NCBI RefSeq assembly: GCF_001278755.1
Contig: NZ_CP012601.1
Span: 2,170,001-2,234,000 of the forward strand
DNA from: Bacillus sp. FJAT-22090
GTDB taxonomy: Bacteria > Bacillota > Bacilli > Bacillales_A > Planococcaceae
DNA length: 64,000 nt
Direction of reading: 5' to 3'
The number at the start of each line of letters is the position of its first letter. Position 1 is the stretch's first letter. The notes beneath the pieces were generated by a model that saw only the letters and a list, made by a program, of their open reading frames with translations, made no database searches and was not told the origin of the DNA. The translations under genes were made by a program, and so were the position numbers. This document shows positions 53,295 through 62,859 of the stretch, one piece after another.

Positions 53295-54140
53295 CTAGTC
53301 GATTTTTACCCATCCTAGACCCATCGAGCCCTCACCCAGGTGAGTTCCAATTACAGGTCCAAAGTAGCTGATTGTAAATTGAACGTTGGGAAGAAGTGCT
53401 TCTAACTCGTTTTTCCAAGTGATGGCTTCTTGTTCGTTGTTTGCGTGGATGATAGTTGCTTGCAGTTTTGCATATTTGTTTGCGTCCTCTTGAAGCATGT
53501 CTGCAATACGTTTCATCGCTTTTTTGCGTGTGCGGACTTTTTCATAAGGTACGATGACTTTGTTTTCAAAGTGAAGGATTGGTTTCACTTGAAGAACAGA
53601 GCCTATGACACGTTCGAAACCGTTTAAGCGACCACCTCGATGAAGATGGTCAAGGTTGTCCACCATAAAGTACGCACGAGTTGTTTCTTTCATTACGTTT
53701 AGTTCTTTTAGAATTTCGTCTGGATTGACACCTGCTTGTGCCATCTCAGCAGCACGAAGAACATAAAAGCCTTGAACCATGCATGAAATTTCTGAGTCAA
53801 ATGTGTACACTTCAATTTCTTCTACCATTTCACCAGCTTGCTTTGCTCCAGCTAGTGTTCCGCTGATACCACTCGATAGATGGATGGAAATGACTGTGTC
53901 GTATTCTTTCGAAAGTTCTTCAAAGGTTTTGACAAAATCTCCAAGTGCTGGTTGCGACGTTTTGGGAAGCGCGCGCTCGTTTCGGATTTTATCGTAAAAC
54001 TCTATTGTATTAATGTCTATTTCTTCTCGATATGTTTCATTTCCGAAGACCACGCTAAGTGGAACCATGCGAATGTTGAGTTTATCGTGAATTTCTTTTG
54101 GGATATAGGCTGTGCTGTCCGTTACTACTACCGTTTTCAT
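53295..54140 (-). CDS. degV: DegV family fatty-acid-binding protein
   Basis: About 281 residues. N-terminal VVTDSTAYIPKEI and central SIHLSSGISGTLAGAKQAGE hold the Ser/Thr that bind the carboxylate of a fatty acid. Such proteins present acyl groups to FakA-type kinases. GGAGT lies 11 bases before the ATG at 54140; the open frame extends 33 codons further but through a terminator hairpin, so I reject that extension. Located between degU and comFA as yviA is in B. subtilis. Confidence 0.92.
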   Translation of the reverse strand: MKTVVVTDSTAYIPKEIHDKLNIRMVPLSVVFGNETYREEIDINTIEFYDKIRNERALPKTSQPALGDFVKTFEELSKEYDTVISIHLSSGISGTLAGAKQAGEMVEEIEVYTFDSEISCMVQGFYVLRAAEMAQAGVNPDEILKELNVMKETTRAYFMVDNLDHLHRGGRLNGFERVIGSVLQVKPILHFENKVIVPYEKVRTRKKAMKRIADMLQEDANKYAKLQATIIHANNEQEAITWKNELEALLPNVQFTISYFGPVIGTHLGEGSMGLGWVKID

Positions 54141-54197
54141 GTAAAAAATCACACTCCTATTCTTTAGTGTACTGAATGTCAAGGGTAAAAGAAAGCA

Positions 54198-54242
54198 CAA
54201 AAATACCCTCGACATGATATTTGTCATATATCTAGTCAAGGG
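54198..54242 (-). terminator. Terminator of the lipoprotein gene
   Basis: CCCTTGAC / GTCGAGGG outer stem with one mismatch, plus inner ATGA/TCAT pairing, then a T-rich run on the minus strand. Confidence 0.7.
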
Positions 54243-54284
54243 ATTAATTATTTTTTGATAGGTCTAAGCCTTACTATTTGAAAA

Positions 54285-54385
54285 CGTTTGACAGTCGAGG
54301 CGTGCAAGCAAGAGGCGTAAGCGAATAGAACTTAAGGTTCATGAGCTTACAACGAGTGCAAGCAACTAAGAATGCGAGCGTTTCT
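54285..54385 (-). repeat. Lipoprotein-gene 3' UTR repeat, related to 5521-5597
   Basis: Minus strand starts AAACGCTCGCATTCTTAGTT and GCTTGCACTCGTTGTAAGCT, and ends CTCGACTGTCAAACGTTTT. The AAACG...CGTTT ends form an imperfect palindrome. The first 28 bases align with the element in the hpf 3' UTR. It lies between a stop codon and its terminator. Confidence 0.4.
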
Positions 54386-54403
54386 CAAAAGTATGAGGAT
54401 GTA

Positions 54404-54982
54404 TTATTCAGATGATTCACCTATAAAATAGACGCTTGTGACAAGCCATTTGCCATCTTCTTTTGCGAAAACTGTTACTTGACGACCATCACGATCAAGC
54501 TTTGCTCCAGTACTTGGTTGTGATAGTGCGATGTTAATGTTCGCAAATACTTGCGCTTGGGATTTATCGTATTTAATGATTGTCGTGTTTTCAGCTTTTC
54601 GAATCGTATCATACTCCGTGAATGTTTCTTGTACTACTGTTTTTTCATCTGCATAGTTAAAACCTTCTGGATTTTTGGAAATGGTATTCATGTAGCGGTT
54701 AATATCTTCTACATTAAATGCTTCCATGTATTCATTGAATGCTTCGAGGATAGCAGTTTTTTCTTCTTCTGGGACATTTGTCGCTTCTTCTATATTCCCT
54801 CCAGCCATTTCAAAACCAACTTCTTCCGCTGCTTTATCTTTTGCACCGTGCTCCGTTACCGATTGTGCATCCGTGGGCGCATTATTCGCAGAGCCAATAT
54901 TTGTTGCTTCTTCCTCATTGCTATTGCATGCAGCTAGCGTGAACACGGTTGCTGCGAGTATAAGTGCGTGCATAAATTTCAT
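54404..54982 (-). CDS. Putative lipoprotein with NTF2/SnoaL-like domain
   Basis: 192 residues. A lipoprotein signal ends LAACNSNEEE, with Cys19 as the expected lipidation site. A low-complexity acidic linker follows, and from about residue 75 a cone-shaped NTF2/SnoaL-type domain (ILEAFNEYMEAFNVEDINRY, later DGRQVTVFAKEDGKWLVTSV). Such domains bind small ligands or have no activity; function unknown. AGGAGGAG lies before the ATG. Own terminator. Confidence 0.75.
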   Translation of the reverse strand: MKFMHALILAATVFTLAACNSNEEEATNIGSANNAPTDAQSVTEHGAKDKAAEEVGFEMAGGNIEEATNVPEEEKTAILEAFNEYMEAFNVEDINRYMNTISKNPEGFNYADEKTVVQETFTEYDTIRKAENTTIIKYDKSQAQVFANINIALSQPSTGAKLDRDGRQVTVFAKEDGKWLVTSVYFIGESSE

Positions 54983-55112
54983 CTAGTTCTCTCCTCCTGC
55001 TGAGGTTATTTTGTCATATCTAGGACGAAAACTCAATTAATTAGTTCCGTGAGAGATAGGTAGAAAATTATGGTAATGGTATGTATAGTATAGGTACATA
55101 GGAGGTGGTTCT

Positions 55113-56033
55113 TTGGAAAGACATTTAGCATTGTTGAAAAGATTGCGTGTTGATAGTAGAATGAAGGAATTTATTCGTGAAGAAATTAGGAAAAAAGAAG
55201 CTGGAATCAGAGGTGAGGAACGACTCTTAAGGAAGCTTAAGGAGTTGAGATTACCTGGCCCATTTCGAATATTTTCTGATGTGGGATTGCATATAGATGA
55301 TTGGAGGGTTCAAATCGATTGTATTGTTGTGACGGATAGTTGTTGCATCGTGATAGAGTCTAAAAATATGAGTGGTAATTTAAATTTTGATATAGACACT
55401 GAGGAATTTTATAGAATAGAAGAGAATATTGAAAAATCTTTTCCGAATCCATATTATCAATTAATGCGTAATATTCGTTTTATGAAAGAATTCTTAAACA
55501 CGACGTTCCCTGAACTTAAAGTATCTGGAGCTATCGTCATGACATCAAAATCATGTCGAATCCGAAATAAGCCTTCCCATTATCCTATATTTAAATTAGA
55601 AAGCATTATCGAAAAAATCATACACTTGAATAATAATTCCCCTTCCCTTCTGTTAGATCCTCATTTGGATACCATTGAAAAAATGATTCAAAAGAAACAA
55701 TCCGCTTTTGTGTATTCACCCCTATGCGAGCATTATCATATTTCTCCAAACGACATAATTCCAGGAGTTGAGTGTCCCTGTTGTGGTGTTATTGGAATGG
55801 AGCGTATTTCTACAACCTGGACATGTTTAGCCTGTAATAAAAATAATCGATATACCCACATTTCCGCTGTAGAAGATTATTTTTGGCTAATCAAGAAAGA
55901 AATTACTAATAAAGATTTTCGCAAATTTTGTGGAGTTAAATCTATTCACTCTGCTTCTCGGATGCTTAACAGTATGAATTTGCAGGCATGTGGATTAGGT
56001 CCTGCAAGATATTTTAAACGGAAAGAAAGTTGA
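55113..56033 (+). CDS. NERD domain protein with zinc ribbon
   Basis: 306 residues on the plus strand. The NERD domain (nuclease-related) spans about 30-150: GEERLLRKLKEL, FSDVGLHIDDWRVQIDCIVV and IVIESKNMSGNL, where D, E and K match the PD-(D/E)xK-like core. A C-terminal Cys4 ribbon (CPCCGVI ... CLACNKNN) and a short helical end follow. A DNA-linked role is suggested but not shown. TTG start with GGAGGTGG upstream. Its 3' end meets the largest 21-bp array. Confidence 0.85.
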   Translation: MERHLALLKRLRVDSRMKEFIREEIRKKEAGIRGEERLLRKLKELRLPGPFRIFSDVGLHIDDWRVQIDCIVVTDSCCIVIESKNMSGNLNFDIDTEEFYRIEENIEKSFPNPYYQLMRNIRFMKEFLNTTFPELKVSGAIVMTSKSCRIRNKPSHYPIFKLESIIEKIIHLNNNSPSLLLDPHLDTIEKMIQKKQSAFVYSPLCEHYHISPNDIIPGVECPCCGVIGMERISTTWTCLACNKNNRYTHISAVEDYFWLIKKEITNKDFRKFCGVKSIHSASRMLNSMNLQACGLGPARYFKRKES

Positions 56034-56054
56034 TGAGTGATTAATTATTATTGC

Positions 56055-56486
56055 GCTACATTAGTTGCGTTACTCGCACACTACATTGTTTGGATTACTC
56101 GCTATATAACCTTAATTAGTCGCAACATCTACTCGCTTCCTCGCTACATTTTGATGCATTCGCGCAATATCTATGTTTTACGCTACATTGTTTGGATTAC
56201 TCGCTATATAACCTTAATTAGTCGCAATATCTACTTGTTTTCTCGCTACATTTTGATATATTCACGCAATATTATTGTATAGCGCTACATTGTTTGGATT
56301 ACTCGCTATATAACCTTAATTAGTCGCAACATCTACTCGCTTCCTCGCTATATTTTGGTCCATATGCGCAATATTTTTGTTATACGCAACATTAGCAACG
56401 TAACTCGCAATATATCCACTGTTATACGCAACATTTATTTGCTTACTCGCTACATTCCCATGAATAGGAGCAATATTTTTCACGCA
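56055..56486. repeat. 21-bp phased TCGC array, locus 3 (largest)
   Basis: About 20 cores (TCGC, GCGC, ACGC or close) followed by (A/T)A(C/T)AT recur on the plus strand, among them 56099, 56120, 56141, 56162, 56180, 56201, 56222, 56243, 56264, 56282, 56303, 56324, 56345, 56366, 56384, 56405, 56426, 56447 and 56468. Steps are 21 with occasional 18. A higher-order block starting CTACATTGTTTGGATTACTC repeats at 56081, 56183 and 56285, exactly 102 bp apart. It fills the gap between convergent NERD and degU genes; no gene is assigned here. Confidence 0.82.
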
Positions 56487-56487
56487 A

Positions 56488-56527
56488 AGAAAAAACCTCT
56501 CACTGAATCGCGAGAGGTTTCCCATTT
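56488..56527. terminator. Bidirectional terminator behind degU
   Basis: AAACCTCTC / GAGAGGTTT stem with a 10-base loop. A-run on the left serves degU (-), and T-run on the right can serve plus-strand transcripts. Array 3 begins immediately beyond it. Confidence 0.82.
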
Positions 56528-56531
56528 TTTA

Positions 56532-57206
56532 TTATCGTACTTCGACCCAACCGTTTTTGATGCCGGTTACTACGGCTTGGGTACGGTCGTTTACGTTCAT
56601 TTTTTGTAGAATGCTGGATACGTGGTTTTTTACGGTTTTTTCAGAGATGAAAAGTGTTTCACCAATTGTACGGTTACTTTGCCCATCTGTTAACAGTTGT
56701 AGCACTTCGCATTCACGTTTCGTAAGTAAGTGGAATGGACGGCGAATTTCTGTTTGATGGAAGTTTCCTTTATTTTCACGTTCGCTTAGGCGACGGAATT
56801 CGGCAACTAGATTGCGAGTTACTTTCGGATGTAAGTATGAACCGCCTTGTGCTACTACTTTGATAGCAGAGACAATTGCGTTAGCATCCATTTCTTTTAG
56901 CATGTAACCAAGAGCACCAGTTTTAAGCGCATGTGTTACATAAGATTCGTCGTCATGGATAGATAGCATGATAACTTTAGCTTCCGGATATTTTTCAAGT
57001 AATTCAGCAGTTGCATCAACGCCATTTTTAGTTGGCATATTAATATCCATTAATACAACGTCTGGAATATGTTGTTCATATAAACGAAGAACGTCGCTAC
57101 CGTCATCTCCTTCTGCAATTACGTCAAAAGAATCTTCAAAATCTAAAATACGCTTTACGCCTTCTCTAAAAAGTTGGTGGTCATCTATTATAATAATTTT
57201 TGTCAT
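56532..57206 (-). CDS. degU: Two-component response regulator DegU
   Basis: About 224 residues. Receiver domain with IIDDHQLF at the start and phospho-acceptor Asp54 in [10 protein letters not shown], conserved Lys in [10 protein letters not shown]-terminal LuxR-type helix-turn-helix ([37 protein letters not shown]). Controls exoenzymes, competence and motility with DegS. I take the ATG at 57206, eight bases after GGAGG; the ATG two codons earlier is too close to it. Follows degS in an operon. Confidence 0.96.
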
Positions 57207-57238
57207 CGTCATTTCCTCCTATAAAAACACTGTAGTTA

Positions 57239-58384
57239 TTATTCCTCATTTATCGGAATACTAAACAAAATGGATGCTCCCTTTCCTGGAGATGATATTA
57301 TTTTCATCGTTCCATCGAGTAAATCCACTCGCTCTCGCATACCAATTAATCCAAATGATTTTTCTTTTGCTTCATTTGGATCGAAGCCTTTTCCATTATC
57401 TTTGACGATAATATTTATTTTTTGTTTCAACCATTCTACTTTTACCCAAGCCTCTTTAAACTTTCCGTGCTTAATACCGTTAGTTAAGGACTCTTGGATT
57501 AGTCGGAAAATGGCTACTTCAAAATTTGGTTGGAGACGTTGTTCTTCTCCATATGATTGAAAATGTATCATACACGTTGGATTGTATTCTTGAATTGTTG
57601 ATATATACTTTTTAAGCGTAGGAACCAATCCTAAATCATCTAGTGCCATTGGGCGAAGATCATAAATTATTCGACGAACTTCTGAAAGCGCATTTCGAAC
57701 CATATCTTTCAGTTCATTGATTTCTTTCATCGCTTCGTCTCCGCCACGCTGCTGATATGTAAGATTAATTAAATCTGTTCTAAGTAACACATTCGCAAGC
57801 ATTTGGGCTGGACCGTCGTGTATTTCACGAGAAAGTCTTTTGCGCTCTTCCTCTTGTGCTTCGATAATTTTCAGGGTGAAATCTTGTTTGATTTTTGCGT
57901 TTTCAAGTGCAACTCCCACATCTTTTAAGTCAGAAGTTAAATAATTCATTACTATATTTACTTGATTGACTAGTTGATCCGCACGTTCGATCATTTCCAG
58001 TAAGCCCTGTAATCTGCGTTCTAATTCATCTCTTCTAAGACGAAGTTGTCTTTCCTCTGTTCTTTTTATCAGTAGGTTAATTTGAATCTCATTGGCAGTT
58101 TCATAAGCATTCCGAATTTGAGGTTCCTCGTACGTTTCAAAGTTTTTAGATACTTCTGCTAGGCGATTTCTAGCTAAACGTGATTTCGATTCTAGTAAAT
58201 CCCCTTCAATAATAACGGTTTCAATGTTACCTCGAATTATTTCTAATTCAACTTTCATTTCTTCGAAGCTTTGACGACTCTGTTCGCTTATAATGAATAT
58301 ATCCTTTTTTGAATGATCCATTACTTCTACCATTCGATCGAAAATAACATCTAACGATTTTGTATCAAAATTCTTATTCGTCAT
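57239..58384 (-). CDS. degS: Sensor histidine kinase DegS
   Basis: About 381 residues (B. subtilis 385), cytoplasmic, no membrane helix. N-terminal DegS sensory coiled coil, then HisKA_3 phospho-His in RLSREIHDGPAQMLANVLL, then an ATPase domain (NGIKHGKF, VKDNGKGFDP, SFGLIGMRERV). The ATG at 58384 follows AGGAG; an upstream extension of 18 codons has no such site. Confidence 0.96.
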   Translation of the reverse strand: MTNKNFDTKSLDVIFDRMVEVMDHSKKDIFIISEQSRQSFEEMKVELEIIRGNIETVIIEGDLLESKSRLARNRLAEVSKNFETYEEPQIRNAYETANEIQINLLIKRTEERQLRLRRDELERRLQGLLEMIERADQLVNQVNIVMNYLTSDLKDVGVALENAKIKQDFTLKIIEAQEEERKRLSREIHDGPAQMLANVLLRTDLINLTYQQRGGDEAMKEINELKDMVRNALSEVRRIIYDLRPMALDDLGLVPTLKKYISTIQEYNPTCMIHFQSYGEEQRLQPNFEVAIFRLIQESLTNGIKHGKFKEAWVKVEWLKQKINIIVKDNGKGFDPNEAKEKSFGLIGMRERVDLLDGTMKIISSPGKGASILFSIPINEE

Positions 58385-58443
58385 CTGTTTTTCTCCTTTG
58401 TTTTTTGCAAATGAGTCTTCATTCATTACGGGTGACAAACCCT

Positions 58444-58449
58444 ATTATA
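58444..58449 (-). promoter_or_regulatory. -10 element of the degS promoter
   Basis: Minus strand TATAAT about 60 bases before the degS ATG. The -35 at 17 bp is poor, so an activator may help. Confidence 0.4.
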
Positions 58450-58524
58450 GCACTAAGTGACTAAAAATAAATTAAAATTAGTTTACAACTATATTTCAAA
58501 TTACTCAAGGAGGACCCAAAAAAC

Positions 58525-59160
58525 ATGAGAAATGATTATCAAACAGTCAAAGGCTATGGGGAAAGTGAGATTATCATCCAAAAATCACGCTTCCTTACCT
58601 ATGTGAATCGAGCTGAGACTGAGGAGGAAGCGCAAGATTTTATTAATTCTATCAAAGTAAAGCATAAAGATGCTACTCATAACTGTTCTGCTTATATTAT
58701 TGGGGAACACGATAACATCCAAAAAGCCAATGATGATGGGGAACCTAGTGGAACTGCTGGGGTGCCAATGCTCGAAGTGTTAAAGAAGCAAGGAATTAAG
58801 GATACTATCGTAGTTGTTACTCGGTATTTCGGTGGTATTAAACTAGGTGGCGGTGGTCTTATTCGAGCATATGGAAAAGCTACTACAGAGGGAGTTACAG
58901 CAGCAAAACTGGTAGAGCGCAAGCTACATCATCTGATGAAAGTATCAATTGACTACAATTGGTTAGGTAAAGTCGAAAATGAAGTGCGAAATTCTGAATA
59001 TCCTCTAAAAGATATTAACTATGCAGAGTCTGTAGAAGTCCATGTGTATGTAAAAGCAGAGGATGAATCCAATTTCTCTGATTGGATGACTGAAATGACA
59101 AATGGACAATGTAAAATAGAAATTGTCGAAAAAGAATTTTTGGAATTTGAAGTAAATTGA
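58525..59160 (+). CDS. yvyE: YigZ/IMPACT family protein (YvyE)
   Basis: 211 residues. N-terminal UPF0029/Impact domain with KSRFLTYVNRAETEEEAQDF, NDDGEPSGTAGVPMLEVL and VTRYFGGIKLGGGGLIRAYG, plus a C-terminal DUF1949-like ferredoxin-fold domain. Cellular role not firmly known; linked to translation or stress in relatives. Divergent from degS, same place as yvyE in B. subtilis. GGAGG precedes the ATG. Confidence 0.93.
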   Translation: MRNDYQTVKGYGESEIIIQKSRFLTYVNRAETEEEAQDFINSIKVKHKDATHNCSAYIIGEHDNIQKANDDGEPSGTAGVPMLEVLKKQGIKDTIVVVTRYFGGIKLGGGGLIRAYGKATTEGVTAAKLVERKLHHLMKVSIDYNWLGKVENEVRNSEYPLKDINYAESVEVHVYVKAEDESNFSDWMTEMTNGQCKIEIVEKEFLEFEVN

Positions 59161-59190
59161 TTTATACTTTTTACTAAGGGCGGTGGAAAT

Positions 59191-60360
59191 ATGAAGAAAT
59201 TGATTTTTTTACTAATGTTCTTAATTAGTTTAAGTATAGTTCCAATCTCTACTAATGCGGCAAATTGTCCAGGGGTTGTGTATTGGGACGGTGTCGAGCT
59301 AAAAACTGGTCAAATAGGCAGAGTCATCATTCAAAAACCTACTACTATTTATAAAAATAATAATGGAGTTTTCGAAGCTTCACGAACAGTAAAAAAGGGA
59401 GAAGTTTTTAGAATTTATGCAAATAAAGGATCTTATTATCAACTAGGTGGCGGCCTAGTTATCAAAAACGATGCCTCTATTTTGTATCAAACACCATCTA
59501 AAGAAAAATTTAGATTACTTAATTGCAAGCAAACTACTCCTACTTCTATGGTCATTGGTGACAGTATTACTTCTGTAAATTCCAAATTAGGAGGCGCAAA
59601 GAAATCGATACCCAATGAATTTGATGCATCAACGTCTATTTATCACAAAAACTATAATAACTTCTATGCAATTAGTTATTTAAACAATAAAATAGCTTCA
59701 CTTTATACAAAAGACAAAAACTATCAATTTAATGGTATTTCAATAGCTAGTACTGTTAGTCAACTAGAAAGCAAATTAGGAAAAGCATACGAAACAACTG
59801 GTAACACTTATCCAATTGAAATTATTACATATGATTTTCCTAAGTATGAAGCCAATTTTTTTATTGATGTGCATAATGACAATAAGATCTCTGCAATCTA
59901 CTTAATAGATCGCCAGTTAATAAAGCGAAACGCAAATCTCTATCCAAAAAAATCTAGTACACTAGAAAAAAGTTATGAGACACTCTTATACGAAATAACG
60001 AATGCTGAAAGAAAGGCAAAAGGCGTTTCAATACTACAATATTCTACCGATATTTCGAATGTTGCTCGTGGCCACAGTGTCGATATGGGTAAACATGATT
60101 ATTTTAACCATGATAACTTAGATGGGGAATCGCCTTTTGACAGGCTAGCAAATGGTGGAATTCTGTTTAGAAATGCAGGAGAAAATATTGCAATGGGATA
60201 CACGAACCCATACTTTGCCCATGAAGCATTGATGAATTCATTAGGTCATCGTAAAAATATCGTTAGTACTAACTATACGCAACATGGCGTAGGCGTGTTT
60301 TTTGCAGACTGGACGTACGGATCGATACCTTACTATACGGAAAATTTTATAAAACCTTGA
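59191..60360 (+). CDS. Secreted CAP/SCP domain protein
   Basis: 389 residues with a signal peptide ending near residue 23 (ISTNAA). The middle (~110-250) resembles the CAP-associated N-terminal domain seen in Bacillus YkwD-like proteins. The CAP domain is at about 265-385: LLYEITNAERKAKGVSILQY, GHSVDMGKHDYFNHDN, NAGENIAMGYTNPYFAHEAL and NSLGHRKNIV. Biochemical activity of bacterial CAP proteins is unsettled. Located 30 bases after yvyE and near the wall-hydrolase cluster; terminator follows. Confidence 0.9.
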   Translation: MKKLIFLLMFLISLSIVPISTNAANCPGVVYWDGVELKTGQIGRVIIQKPTTIYKNNNGVFEASRTVKKGEVFRIYANKGSYYQLGGGLVIKNDASILYQTPSKEKFRLLNCKQTTPTSMVIGDSITSVNSKLGGAKKSIPNEFDASTSIYHKNYNNFYAISYLNNKIASLYTKDKNYQFNGISIASTVSQLESKLGKAYETTGNTYPIEIITYDFPKYEANFFIDVHNDNKISAIYLIDRQLIKRNANLYPKKSSTLEKSYETLLYEITNAERKAKGVSILQYSTDISNVARGHSVDMGKHDYFNHDNLDGESPFDRLANGGILFRNAGENIAMGYTNPYFAHEALMNSLGHRKNIVSTNYTQHGVGVFFADWTYGSIPYYTENFIKP

Positions 60361-60364
60361 TAGG

Positions 60365-60393
60365 AAGCTGCCTCTTTTGGAGGCAGCTTTTTT
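60365..60393 (+). terminator. Terminator of the CAP/SCP gene
   Basis: AAGCTGCCTC / GAGGCAGCTT, 5-base loop, followed by a T-run on the plus strand, four bases past the stop. Confidence 0.9.
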
Positions 60394-60395
60394 GT

Positions 60396-60497
60396 TTGTC
60401 GCTTTTGGTTGATGATTGGTCGCTTTCGACGATGCATTTGTCGCTTTCCATGCATTGTTTGTCGCTTTCACTTGCTGATTGGTCTCGTTTAGCCATT
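60396..60497. repeat. 21-bp phased TTGTCGCTTTC array, locus 4
   Basis: TCGC cores at 60399, 60420, 60441 and 60462, plus a degenerate TCTC at 60483, all exactly 21 bp apart, within (T/G)GTCGCTTT(C/T). Flanks differ from loci 1-3 (CTTTC instead of TACATT). On the minus strand the unit would read KATN plus three residues. It lies between the terminators of two convergent genes. No gene is assigned here. Confidence 0.8.
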
Positions 60498-60587
60498 TGT
60501 GTTATTTTGTTGTATCTAATTCCAAGTGATGAACAGAACGAATATTAAGCCTCAGATCAGAGTAAATTAGTCTCGTTTTTTAACAAT

Positions 60588-60617
60588 ATAAAAAGGTGAC
60601 CAATCTATTGGTCACCT
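60588..60617 (-). terminator. Terminator of the SpoIID/LytB-like gene
   Basis: 11-bp perfect stem AGGTGACCAAT / ATTGGTCACCT with a 2-base turn, followed by a T-rich run on the minus strand. Confidence 0.85.
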
Positions 60618-60623
60618 GATTAC

Positions 60624-62159
60624 TTAGTATTTTTCTATTGTTACGCCTTGATAATAGTGTTTTAGGATACGATCGTATGTCCAGCCTGCTTCTGCACGGG
60701 CTTTCGCACCATATTGGCTCATGCCGATTCGGTGGCCGTAGCCTTTTCCGTTTACAGTAACAGATTGGATTCCAGAGGTTGTCGCTGTTGTAGAGACAAT
60801 TCCTTCATTCGTTTGAACCCCTACTGGACCACTTGAAATCGTTTCTGTTCCTGTTGCAGTTTGTACAGACATACCGTTTAACGATGTTACTGCTGAAGAA
60901 CCGTTAGCTCCTTGCACAGCAATATCAGTAACTCCGGATGGTTTAGTAAATGAAATATCAAACCAATTGGATTTTAAAGATGCATTATTTGCATCTAAAA
61001 ATACGTTACGCATTACTGTCTCATTACCTTCAATTGTTTTTTCACCAGCGGAAGTCACAGCAGTCACAGCGGAAACTTCTCCGTTGGATCCTGTTTTAGC
61101 AAGCTTCACATCTAGTAATTGATCCGTAGAAGGATTAAATCCAAATTTCTTAAGAATATTCGATGCTGGTATACTTACAGACCAATTACTATATGGAGAT
61201 TTTTCAATAGAATCATCTACAGATACAAATTGCGGTACTTGTGTTGAATTCCATACTTCACCAATATTCGCTGTTCTACCACCGCTTGTAGAGTAAAAAT
61301 ATGCCTGTACTAGTTTACCACCTGATTTAATAACCAATCCGTTAGTTGCTTCTACAGCAGCATTTGTATTTTTATGCTCAGAGGTATATCCTTTGTACAT
61401 TTGGTCTTTCGTTGTACTACTTAAAATACCAGACTTACTTAATGAGTAACTTCTCGCTGCTACTGATTGAGCTTTTAGGGCTTCGATATGCCATAATGCG
61501 GGTGATTCATTTGGAATAACACCTTTTAAATAATTCTCTAAATCAAGTCTATTTGCAATTTGTACATTTGCACCTGATTTAACAACATTAAAACTACCAC
61601 GGTATTGTGTACCACTAGGCGTCTTACCGAGTGGTTGATTCACAACAGATCCAACAGTAGCATTAGTCGAAGGAATCCAGGAAGAAACGCCTTGATCATC
61701 TCTAATGGAGTACCATAGCTCTCCATTTGCATTTGTAAATTCGTTTACTACATATGCACCTTGGAAAGGTTTATACGCTTTTACTACCTCATAATCTGCA
61801 GTAGCGCCTTTTCTACCTTCTACATCGGCTGTAAACACAACCATCTTTTCATTGCCCGATAAAGCATGTAAAGCAAATCCATTCGCTGAATACATGGCTG
61901 ATCCAACTTGATAAATGGAAACTTCCCCATTTACTTGAGAAAAAGTAATAGGTGTATTAGGTAGAGCGTAAAACATTTCGTTCGTTGTTAAATTTTGTAG
62001 TTTATAAATTCCTGTCAAATTGAGCGAAGTGGAAGATGCATTATGCACTTCTACACGCACTTGCTTAGAATAGCTTTCTTGTGTATACGCGAATGCCGTA
62101 TTAGATGTAGCTAATGTAAGTAAAGCGATAGATAAAACGGTCAATCCTTTTTTGAACAT
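60624..62159 (-). CDS. lytB: Secreted SpoIID/LytB domain protein
   Basis: 511 residues with a signal peptide (LSIALLTLATSNTAFA). The SpoIID/LytB domain runs from about 190: ANRLDLENYLKGVIPNESPA, IEALKAQSVAARSYSLSK, and at the C-terminus GKGYGHRIGMSQYGAKARAE. SpoIID is a lytic transglycosylase in sporulation, and LytB enhances the amidase LytC in vegetative cells. The SH3 gene and amidase immediately upstream point to the LytB role. GAGGTGA lies inside the end of the preceding gene, whose stop is one base before this ATG. Confidence 0.88.
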   Translation of the reverse strand: MFKKGLTVLSIALLTLATSNTAFAYTQESYSKQVRVEVHNASSTSLNLTGIYKLQNLTTNEMFYALPNTPITFSQVNGEVSIYQVGSAMYSANGFALHALSGNEKMVVFTADVEGRKGATADYEVVKAYKPFQGAYVVNEFTNANGELWYSIRDDQGVSSWIPSTNATVGSVVNQPLGKTPSGTQYRGSFNVVKSGANVQIANRLDLENYLKGVIPNESPALWHIEALKAQSVAARSYSLSKSGILSSTTKDQMYKGYTSEHKNTNAAVEATNGLVIKSGGKLVQAYFYSTSGGRTANIGEVWNSTQVPQFVSVDDSIEKSPYSNWSVSIPASNILKKFGFNPSTDQLLDVKLAKTGSNGEVSAVTAVTSAGEKTIEGNETVMRNVFLDANNASLKSNWFDISFTKPSGVTDIAVQGANGSSAVTSLNGMSVQTATGTETISSGPVGVQTNEGIVSTTATTSGIQSVTVNGKGYGHRIGMSQYGAKARAEAGWTYDRILKHYYQGVTIEKY

Positions 62160-62160
62160 C

Positions 62161-62859
62161 TTACTTCACCTCAGTTAGCGTACTTAGCACCCAACCTTTT
62201 GTACCTTTTGCGGTTTGCACATTGTACCAAGTTTCACCAGAAGCATTTTTGAAAGAGCCTAAATATTTTAATGATGTACCTTTTGCAACTAGTTCAATAG
62301 ATGCATAATTTGTAGTTGCACCTTTTCTTACATTCACAGCTTGTTTAGTTATTACATTTGTGGGTATATAATCAGTAGGCTTTGTTGTTGAAACGTCACC
62401 TGAGAATACCCAGCCTTTTACAGCAGCTGAAATTTCAACACGATACCATACTCCAGAAGCAGATTTGTGTTGGTCAATAACTGTTAATCCTTTATTTGCT
62501 CCAAAAGTAGCTAAAACTTTATAGTCACGACTTGCTCCGCTATGCACTTTTACACTATTAGTAGTTGTATAGACTACTGATGGTAAATCACCAGGTACTG
62601 TAGGAGTCGTCGGTGGTGTCACTACGCCTCCACCTTCTGCAACCGCTTTTTGTAATTGTTCGATTAAAACTTTTTGTTCTGCAACTTGTTTTTCAAGTGA
62701 TGTTACTTTTGTTTGTATTGGATTTAACTGTGCTTGTACCCATTCAACTGAAGCTAACAATAAGTTAGAGTCCGCTTTTGTTGATGTTGGAATATTGATG
62801 GAGATAAGTAAGCTTAAACCAAGTACTGCACCAATAGTTGCTAAAAATTTCTTTTTCAT
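62161..62859 (-). CDS. Secreted bacterial SH3 domain protein
   Basis: 232 residues. A signal peptide (to about residue 29) is followed by a coiled-coil stretch (~45-75, NPIQTKVTSLEKQVAEQK), a Pro/Thr linker, then two SH3b modules at ~95-160 and ~165-230 (VKHSGASRDYKV-like and VNVRKGATTNYASIELVA). SH3b domains bind the wall; no catalytic domain is present. Between amidase and LytB-like genes it is likely a wall-binding partner, in the place of lytA in B. subtilis but unrelated to it. Confidence 0.82.
   Translation of the reverse strand: MKKKFLATIGAVLGLSLLISINIPTSTKADSNLLLASVEWVQAQLNPIQTKVTSLEKQVAEQKVLIEQLQKAVAEGGGVVTPPTTPTVPGDLPSVVYTTTNSVKVHSGASRDYKVLATFGANKGLTVIDQHKSASGVWYRVEISAAVKGWVFSGDVSTTKPTDYIPTNVITKQAVNVRKGATTNYASIELVAKGTSLKYLGSFKNASGETWYNVQTAKGTKGWVLSTLTEVK

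Follow-up and report, generated by a model that had tools for sequence, protein, structure and literature searches.

A helically phased repeat array adjoining a NERD gene in Bacillus sp. FJAT-22090: a candidate nuclease and DNA-array pair with dispersed copies

Introduction

Between two convergent genes of Bacillus sp. FJAT-22090 lies an array of short direct repeats, and the locus raises the question of what kind of element this array is and which protein might read it. We analyzed it within a stretch of 64,000 nucleotides (contig NZ_CP012601.1, positions 2,170,001 to 2,234,000), hereafter termed the window. The adjoining NERD gene, unnoticed in the original prediction for this locus, is the key to the array. 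Our preferred reading, to which we assign a probability of roughly 60%, is that the two form a nuclease and DNA-lattice pair with dispersed copies, in which the array is the target of the protein encoded by the adjoining gene, in an organisation resembling that of RAYT/REPIN.

Architecture of the array in the window

The array was delimited by a repeat finder, TRF and a core scan to 56049..56484 on the + strand, with the word CGCWAYAT in the sense direction of the NERD gene. Allowing at most one mismatch, the core scan found 21 cores with starts from 56054 to 56469, the first lying 21 bp past the last base of the + strand NERD gene (55113-56033). An exact 21-bp neighbour is present for 20 of the 21 cores, compared with no more than two in any of 1000 Markov-shuffled copies. 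The leading core at 56054 is followed, after a step of 25, by four blocks of five cores each (steps 21, 21, 21 and 21), with a joining step of 18 and thus a block unit of 4x21+18 = 102 bp. All blocks are on the + strand: block 1 at 56079..56170 (cores 56079, 56100, 56121, 56142 and 56163, at a step of 21), block 2 at 56181..56272 (cores 56181, 56202, 56223, 56244 and 56265), block 3 at 56283..56374 (cores 56283, 56304, 56325, 56346 and 56367) and block 4 at 56385..56476 (cores 56385, 56406, 56427, 56448 and 56469). Identity within the array is 0.506 at lag 21, against a mean of 0.28 and a maximum of 0.36 in Markov shuffles (n=2000), and 0.74 at lag 102, against a shuffle maximum of 0.38; TRF reported a period of 102 with 3.1 copies and a score of 491. 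The TCGC-type cores at 21 or 18 bp that had been described earlier were confirmed in coordinates and spacing. The 102-bp higher-order repeat was likewise recovered, but with four blocks instead of the three first counted, the fourth being 61% identical to the first.

The convergent neighbour of the array is a degU-type response regulator on the - strand (56532..57212), for which family and genomic neighbours, rather than any named match, suggest the name DegU. Between the array end and the degU stop, a hairpin followed by a T run, probably a terminator, was located by eye at 56490..56530 (AAACCTCTC ... GAGAGGTTT, loop of 10); it was not listed by the inverted-repeat scan, which was restricted to loops of 3-8. 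The repeat finder listed no inverted repeat pair in the array, its sole listed pair lying inside degU, and no Rfam family reached its gathering score in the window at 54000-62500. RNA folding of the array was weaker than that of shuffled sequences on either strand (z +2.1), which leaves an RNA-structure reading unsupported.

All 17 congeners with sequence downstream of degU carry an array of TTGCG-type cores (degU strand) there; an eighteenth, L098, runs into a contig end and is outside this count. These arrays consist of exact 21-bp runs with joining steps of about 18, 29 or 40 between them, and their higher-order period, where clear, is 101-103, 112-113 or 124. Joining steps of 29 and 40 equal 18 plus about one and two DNA turns, respectively. 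The same comparison bears on the suggestion that the array is a decayed or living heptad-repeat peptide. In the window, each step after the first is divisible by three and a single stop interrupts the 151 codons of + frame 0, but the frame is not conserved across orthologues, since the steps of 29, 40, 28 and 17 in orthologous arrays disrupt it, as do the 20-bp units found elsewhere. A coding reading is therefore unsupported, and we consider the peptide option, which had been offered as a second choice, to have failed and to be extremely improbable.

The adjoining gene encodes a predicted NERD nuclease

The proposed partner of the array (55113..56033, + strand) encodes a protein of 306 aa that matches PF08378 with an E-value of 1.2e-17 and 64.8 bits, against a curated cut-off of 22.1; only PF08378 was found in this array-adjacent protein. 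Its layout comprises a PD-(D/E)xK nuclease-like domain, a zinc ribbon with cysteines 221, 224, 238 and 241, and a C-terminal winged helix (~247-303). The PD-(D/E)xK fold is supported by an AlphaFold2 model (mean pLDDT 94.4) and by fold matches, with Can2 among the like folds. Across 48 aligned intact family members, D69, E82 and K84 are invariant, as are C221, C238 and C241, and C224 is present in at least 90%. We predict from this model that the gene product is a PD-(D/E)xK nuclease that also carries a zinc ribbon and a winged helix, and the invariance of the catalytic residues argues for nicking or cutting. Most genomes searched in the host family have several PF08378 matches each. Interrupted or shortened NERD frames were observed at G000:2377572 (L212), 2990077 (L218) and 380830 (L191), and the broken genes at G000:2377572 and 2990077 retain their arrays.

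NERD domains are known in defence proteins, and the arrays could accordingly be imagined as a reservoir that restrains the NERD nuclease and releases it on stress or phage entry. Weak similarity to parts of MADS6 and PglW and the Can2-like fold would fit such a role. All NCBIfam matches, however, fall below cut-off, PADLOC gave only weak matches (E 5e-4 or worse), and solo arrays lie at housekeeping genes such as eno, unlike a defence island. We regard a defence function as improbable.

Linkage of arrays to NERD genes

Arrays are linked to NERD genes. The sample comprised 60 NERD genes chosen blind to arrays in 34 genomes and 13 genera of the host family, mostly encoding ~300-380 aa; it was drawn from the PF08378 matches listed, best by E-value, and left out the known degU-side genes, genes at contig ends and some short ones. 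An array was scored when any 5-mer occurred three times at a fixed lag in the 600 bp downstream of the gene. By this test 40/60 NERD genes have a downstream array with a lag of 21 (32 genes) or 20 (9 genes), and 0/60 have one at any other lag from 15 to 30. Upstream of the same genes, lag 21 was found in 16, lag 19 in two and lag 20 in two. Control genes of at least 150 aa were positive in 49/904 cases at lag 21 and in 5/904 at lag 20, that is, in at most 54/904; these controls represent the window genus only and include stretches picked for arrays. The difference is pronounced (Fisher p ~6e-30), with positive NERD genes in 12 of the 13 genera and, within the control genus, in 9/20. Among the 20 genes failing the strict test, seven still have lag 21 as their best lag and one repeats at 41 bp; the remaining ones show nothing clear. 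A clear five-unit phased profile was obtained for 43/59 NERD genes with downstream sequence, a set overlapping the 60, and in 41 of these 43 the first core lies within 150 bp of the stop (median 41 bp).

The linkage follows the C-terminal part of the protein. Of the 60 NERD proteins, 53 match a profile built on their C-terminal 100 residues, and an array is present at 39/53 genes with this domain versus 1/7 without it. The one exception, L283 (G069), has a 21-bp array although its protein does not match the profile. Neither the C-terminal domain nor a 5-mer array was found for 19 other PF08378 matches of the host family (one gene, L190/L196, is counted both here and in the 60), nor for the nine testable of ten NERD matches from other families. 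One of these matches from other families, a NERD gene of another type in another family of the class (L170, G079), has a 41-bp tandem repeat (TTTTTAATCC...) behind it, which may be distantly related to the system.

Named records gave a similar picture. Lag 20 or 21 was the best lag in 21/21 of those with downstream sequence, and the 5-mer test was positive in 20/21; these comprise 13 Psychrobacillus-type records (12 Psychrobacillus and one Bacillus sp.) and eight from Planococcus/Planomicrobium, many of the genes being orthologues of the degU-side NERD gene. These matches suggest that the genus of the window is Psychrobacillus. Three Clostridia NERD matches among the named records are without an array. 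A tblastn search over the first stretches examined, three of them pre-selected for arrays, returned six NERD genes, all adjoining arrays, which lie directly downstream in five cases and upstream in one (L091).

Helical phasing, blocks and orientation

The arrays are helically phased and have a preferred orientation. Pooled core steps are dominated by 21 (307) and 20 (118), followed by 42 (22), 19 (16), 40 (13), 41 and 22 (6 each), 18 (3) and a few others. Runs of 20-21 steps peak at five cores (46 runs), with 13 runs of two, 20 of three, 21 of four, 15 of six and eight of eight or more. Most higher-order periods correspond to whole helical turns at 10.2-10.3 bp: for their unique values, excluding those within 1 of a multiple of 21, R is 0.79 at 10.3 bp and the phase is near 0 at 10.2, a strength that is overstated because adjacent periods such as 101-103 are non-independent. 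At 10.25 bp, periods of 40, 71, 81-82, 101-103, 111-113, 121, 124, 144, 163, 173 and 216 deviate from an integer number of turns by no more than ~0.2; 192 and 197 are not whole turns, 197 falling just outside this range. These results support the earlier proposal of a DNA-level element whose helical phasing suits a protein lattice.

In the 43 profiles, ~9-14 bp of the unit are conserved and the remainder varies. Word direction relative to the gene is concordant when distant proteins are included (p ~0.002), with the sense fit being the better one in 55.7% of 743 distant pairs, which is a tendency only. Downstream of the NERD genes in L194 and L211, terminator-like hairpins (GCTCTTTGC...GCAAAGAGC) lie in alternation with five-unit blocks; L194 has the block together with its hairpins in duplicate.

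Bacterial minisatellites (VNTR) are tandem repeats with higher-order copies, a description that the NERD arrays share, and ordinary minisatellite growth at gene 3' ends would leave the NERD link to chance or to common descent of the locus. The higher-order copies are nearly identical, which indicates that recombination amplifies them, and arrays at orthologous loci share a history. What speaks against this explanation is that the linkage extends over 12/13 genera with differing words and far exceeds that of other genes, that enrichment is confined to lags 20-21, that cores are conserved in a variable unit, and that words agree between distant places of one genome. In contrast to VNTR, the NERD arrays conserve only part of the unit, hold it at a constant helical phase and have a word linked to the adjoining gene. 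We consider minisatellite growth a poor explanation for the arrays.

Arrays elsewhere in the genomes

The absence of the period elsewhere had been named as an observation that would speak against a DNA element; the period is in fact present both in this genome and in relatives. TCGC occurring three times at 21 bp gave 13 matches at six places in the own genome, with 11 matches for the reversed-pattern control because the cores contain CGCT. Among 120 relatives, the pattern is common within the host family, which is only a lead given this control and chance matches in high-GC genomes. A de novo 5-mer scan found lag 21 at 23 intergenic places in 400 kb of G003 and at 11 in 400 kb of G015, both pieces taken around degU, with 0-2 places for every other lag from 15 to 30. 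No lag-21 place was found in 300 kb of the own genome from stretches not selected for arrays, so arrays are few there. In G060, which is without PF08378, 200 kb also held no lag-21 place, a weak test since the 300 kb of the own genome were likewise empty.

Arrays of the own genome bear differing words, for example TCGCTCAATC, TTTAGTTGGAA, GTCGCTTT and CGCTACATT. A second, shorter 21-bp solo array lies in the window at 60395-60469 (+ strand; word TTTGTCGCTTT, reverse GCGACAAA); it is flanked by genes for a CAP-domain and a SpoIID-domain protein. Its word is that behind the broken NERD gene G000:2377572; the automatic match is weak, with two phased 7-mers, while the NERD array of another genome scores 11. 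After the array, at 60479-60487, comes a single TTGGTCTCG unit, which is the word belonging to another NERD gene, G000:2471947. Ten array-adjacent proteins were scanned, yielding two NERD proteins, a response regulator, cation efflux, CAP, SpoIID, CggR-like and TPM proteins, one DUF4440 match below cut-off and one protein without a match; no Rep was among them. A further dispersed sequence, around GGTGGACGCTTTCCGTGGGG, occurs in L363, L365, L371, L372, L378 (behind eno) and L058 near 16560; it is apparently another repeat family, unrelated to the arrays.

The 42 solo arrays are placed between convergent genes in 12 cases, tandem genes in 28 and divergent genes in two. The idea of a boundary between convergent genes thus holds for 12/42 and not for the other settings. 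Presence and absence of repeats were seen at two sites, eno and CDF; the analysis revealed no clean empty/filled site whose ends are defined. By eye, TTAGTTG-type arrays lie behind eno in G000, G005 and G013, another word in G001, G012 and G018, and a remnant in G009; among 18 genomes with the whole gene, an array is present in six and a remnant in one, while 11 have neither, and G016 is uninformative. At the CDF/liaR site, also by eye, G000, G013, G014 and G006 (one unit) have the word of the metH-side NERD gene, G011, G017 and G004 a related, non-identical word, G003 the word of its degU-side NERD gene and G009 another word; eight of 17 orthologous sites have no visible array.

These sites bear on whether the arrays serve the host. 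In such an explanation the NERD-winged-helix protein binds them as a nucleoid or 3'-end factor, acting as a roadblock to read-through or convergent transcription or in fork control, and the arrays are kept by function, not spread. It would account for the rarity of solo arrays between divergent genes (2/42 versus a background of 62/394, p 0.065), for the filling of the same sites (CDF-liaR, eno) by differing words in several species and for the retention of the degU-side array in every congener with sequence. Array presence nevertheless varies, as at eno, two broken NERD genes still have arrays, and invariant catalytic residues are needless in a pure binder. A host-serving lattice is, in our judgement, unlikely, though clearly less so than defence or minisatellite growth.

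Agreement of words between NERD genes and solo arrays

Solo arrays were compared with NERD arrays in G000, G003 and G015 by shared phased 7-mers, using 7/10, 5/8 and 6/7 PF08378 matches, respectively, the rest being other types or a fragment. Solo and NERD arrays agree in their words: for 25/42 solo arrays the word recurs in a NERD array of the same genome, versus 12/84 in comparisons with the two other genomes (Fisher p ~3e-7, which is overstated, since a single word, CCACATA in G003, accounts for 11 of the 25 matches). By genome, agreement was 3/7 in G000, 15/23 in G003 and 7/12 in G015. A fourth G000 array (148915) links to the window NERD gene by an 8-mer test, and two G015 arrays (121413 and 250409) were seen by eye to carry the GAGACCAA word of a broken NERD gene. 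The automatic test left 17/42 solo arrays without an own-genome NERD match, including all six TTACTTGC-type arrays of G003. These orphan words (TTACTTGC/GCAAGTAA) lie in the 400-kb piece of G003:C1 at 61656, 126922, 137663, 214499, 267025 and 376282, and were found in none of the five NERD genes tested in G003.

Each NERD gene tends to have its own word. At the degU locus, an alignment inspected by eye shows that L103 and L114 have N-terminal features in common with L102, but that their C-terminal KT-F/Y-Y motif and their AATCGCAA word are those of L106-L108. These mixed features suggest that the C-terminal domain and the array change together, although physical closeness could also produce the pattern. 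The wider word-similarity test does not single out the winged helix: word similarity tracks whole-protein similarity, with a partial r of 0.10 for the winged helix given the NERD domain and 0.26 for the NERD domain given the winged helix.

Discussion

We propose that the protein encoded directly upstream has the array as its DNA target. The NERD-winged-helix protein would read the ~9-14 bp core, most likely via its C-terminal domain. Cores two turns apart would line up about five proteins per block along a single face of the DNA, and joining steps that restore the helical phase could unite several five-core blocks in one lattice. The small solo arrays, mostly near gene 3' ends, may be copies or targets served in trans. 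The nuclease would most likely nick or cut at or beside arrays, leading to their amplification and spread, and gene and arrays would together be a selfish or semi-selfish pair, an interpretation to which the dispersed word-matched copies, the broken genes keeping arrays and the empty sites point. The sequences show linkage, phasing, a preferred orientation, word agreement and conserved catalytic and zinc residues; for the NERD-array pair we infer binding, a lattice, cutting and mobility.

The closest known parallel is RAYT/REP-REPIN, where a protein gene has its own repeat type clustered alongside with dispersed extragenic copies, several distinct gene/repeat pairs occur per genome, and gene-repeat co-evolution is proposed (PMC3116915). 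The NERD arrays resemble that system in the repeat type that lies beside its protein gene (strict test and profiles alike) and in extragenic copies of the same type, to which 25 of the 42 solo arrays correspond and 17 do not. They differ in the protein, a Y1 (HUH) transposase there and a NERD PD-(D/E)xK nuclease with a winged helix here, and in the repeats, which there are palindromic inverted hairpin pairs and here are direct, non-palindromic, phased at 20-21 bp and grouped in blocks of about five, with no inverted pair and weak folding. The NERD-array system thus appears to work like RAYT/REPIN while lacking two of its defining features.

In plasmid iterons, direct repeats spaced by about two turns of the helix adjoin the gene for the protein that binds them, and the NERD arrays, beside the gene of their proposed binder, have this layout; unlike iterons, they are chromosomal, dispersed between genes and carry several words per genome, and no Rep-type protein was identified among the ten array-adjacent proteins scanned. 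As in CRISPR, a conserved part alternates with a variable part next to a nuclease gene. The array differs in its 20-21 bp unit, drifting core, helical joining steps and lack of an Rfam match in the region scanned; it does not consist of near-identical repeats of a known type with unique spacers. NERD-domain and related nucleases, the CRISPR ancillary nuclease Can2 among them, have other accessory domains, and the 19 other PF08378 matches of the host family are without arrays. A literature search of incomplete coverage, with most subscription papers and preprints outside it, found no description of a NERD-array system; within that coverage it agrees with the earlier statement that no family with such a layout has been described, and we regard the system as new. 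More tentatively, and with somewhat less than even confidence, we suggest a new class of element, in which a PD-(D/E)xK/zinc-ribbon/winged-helix nuclease copies its own helically phased five-site array in trans to other parts of the chromosome, several independent protein-word pairs evolve in parallel within one genome, and the scattered arrays follow the word of the nuclease.

If the nuclease and DNA-lattice pair is real, each NERD protein is predicted to recognise only its own word. The pair would assign a function to the multi-copy family of stand-alone NERD proteins and would represent a bacterial repeat system built from parts unrelated to REPs or CRISPR. It would also offer natural pairs of protein and DNA word from which protein-DNA co-evolution and helical phasing could be read directly.
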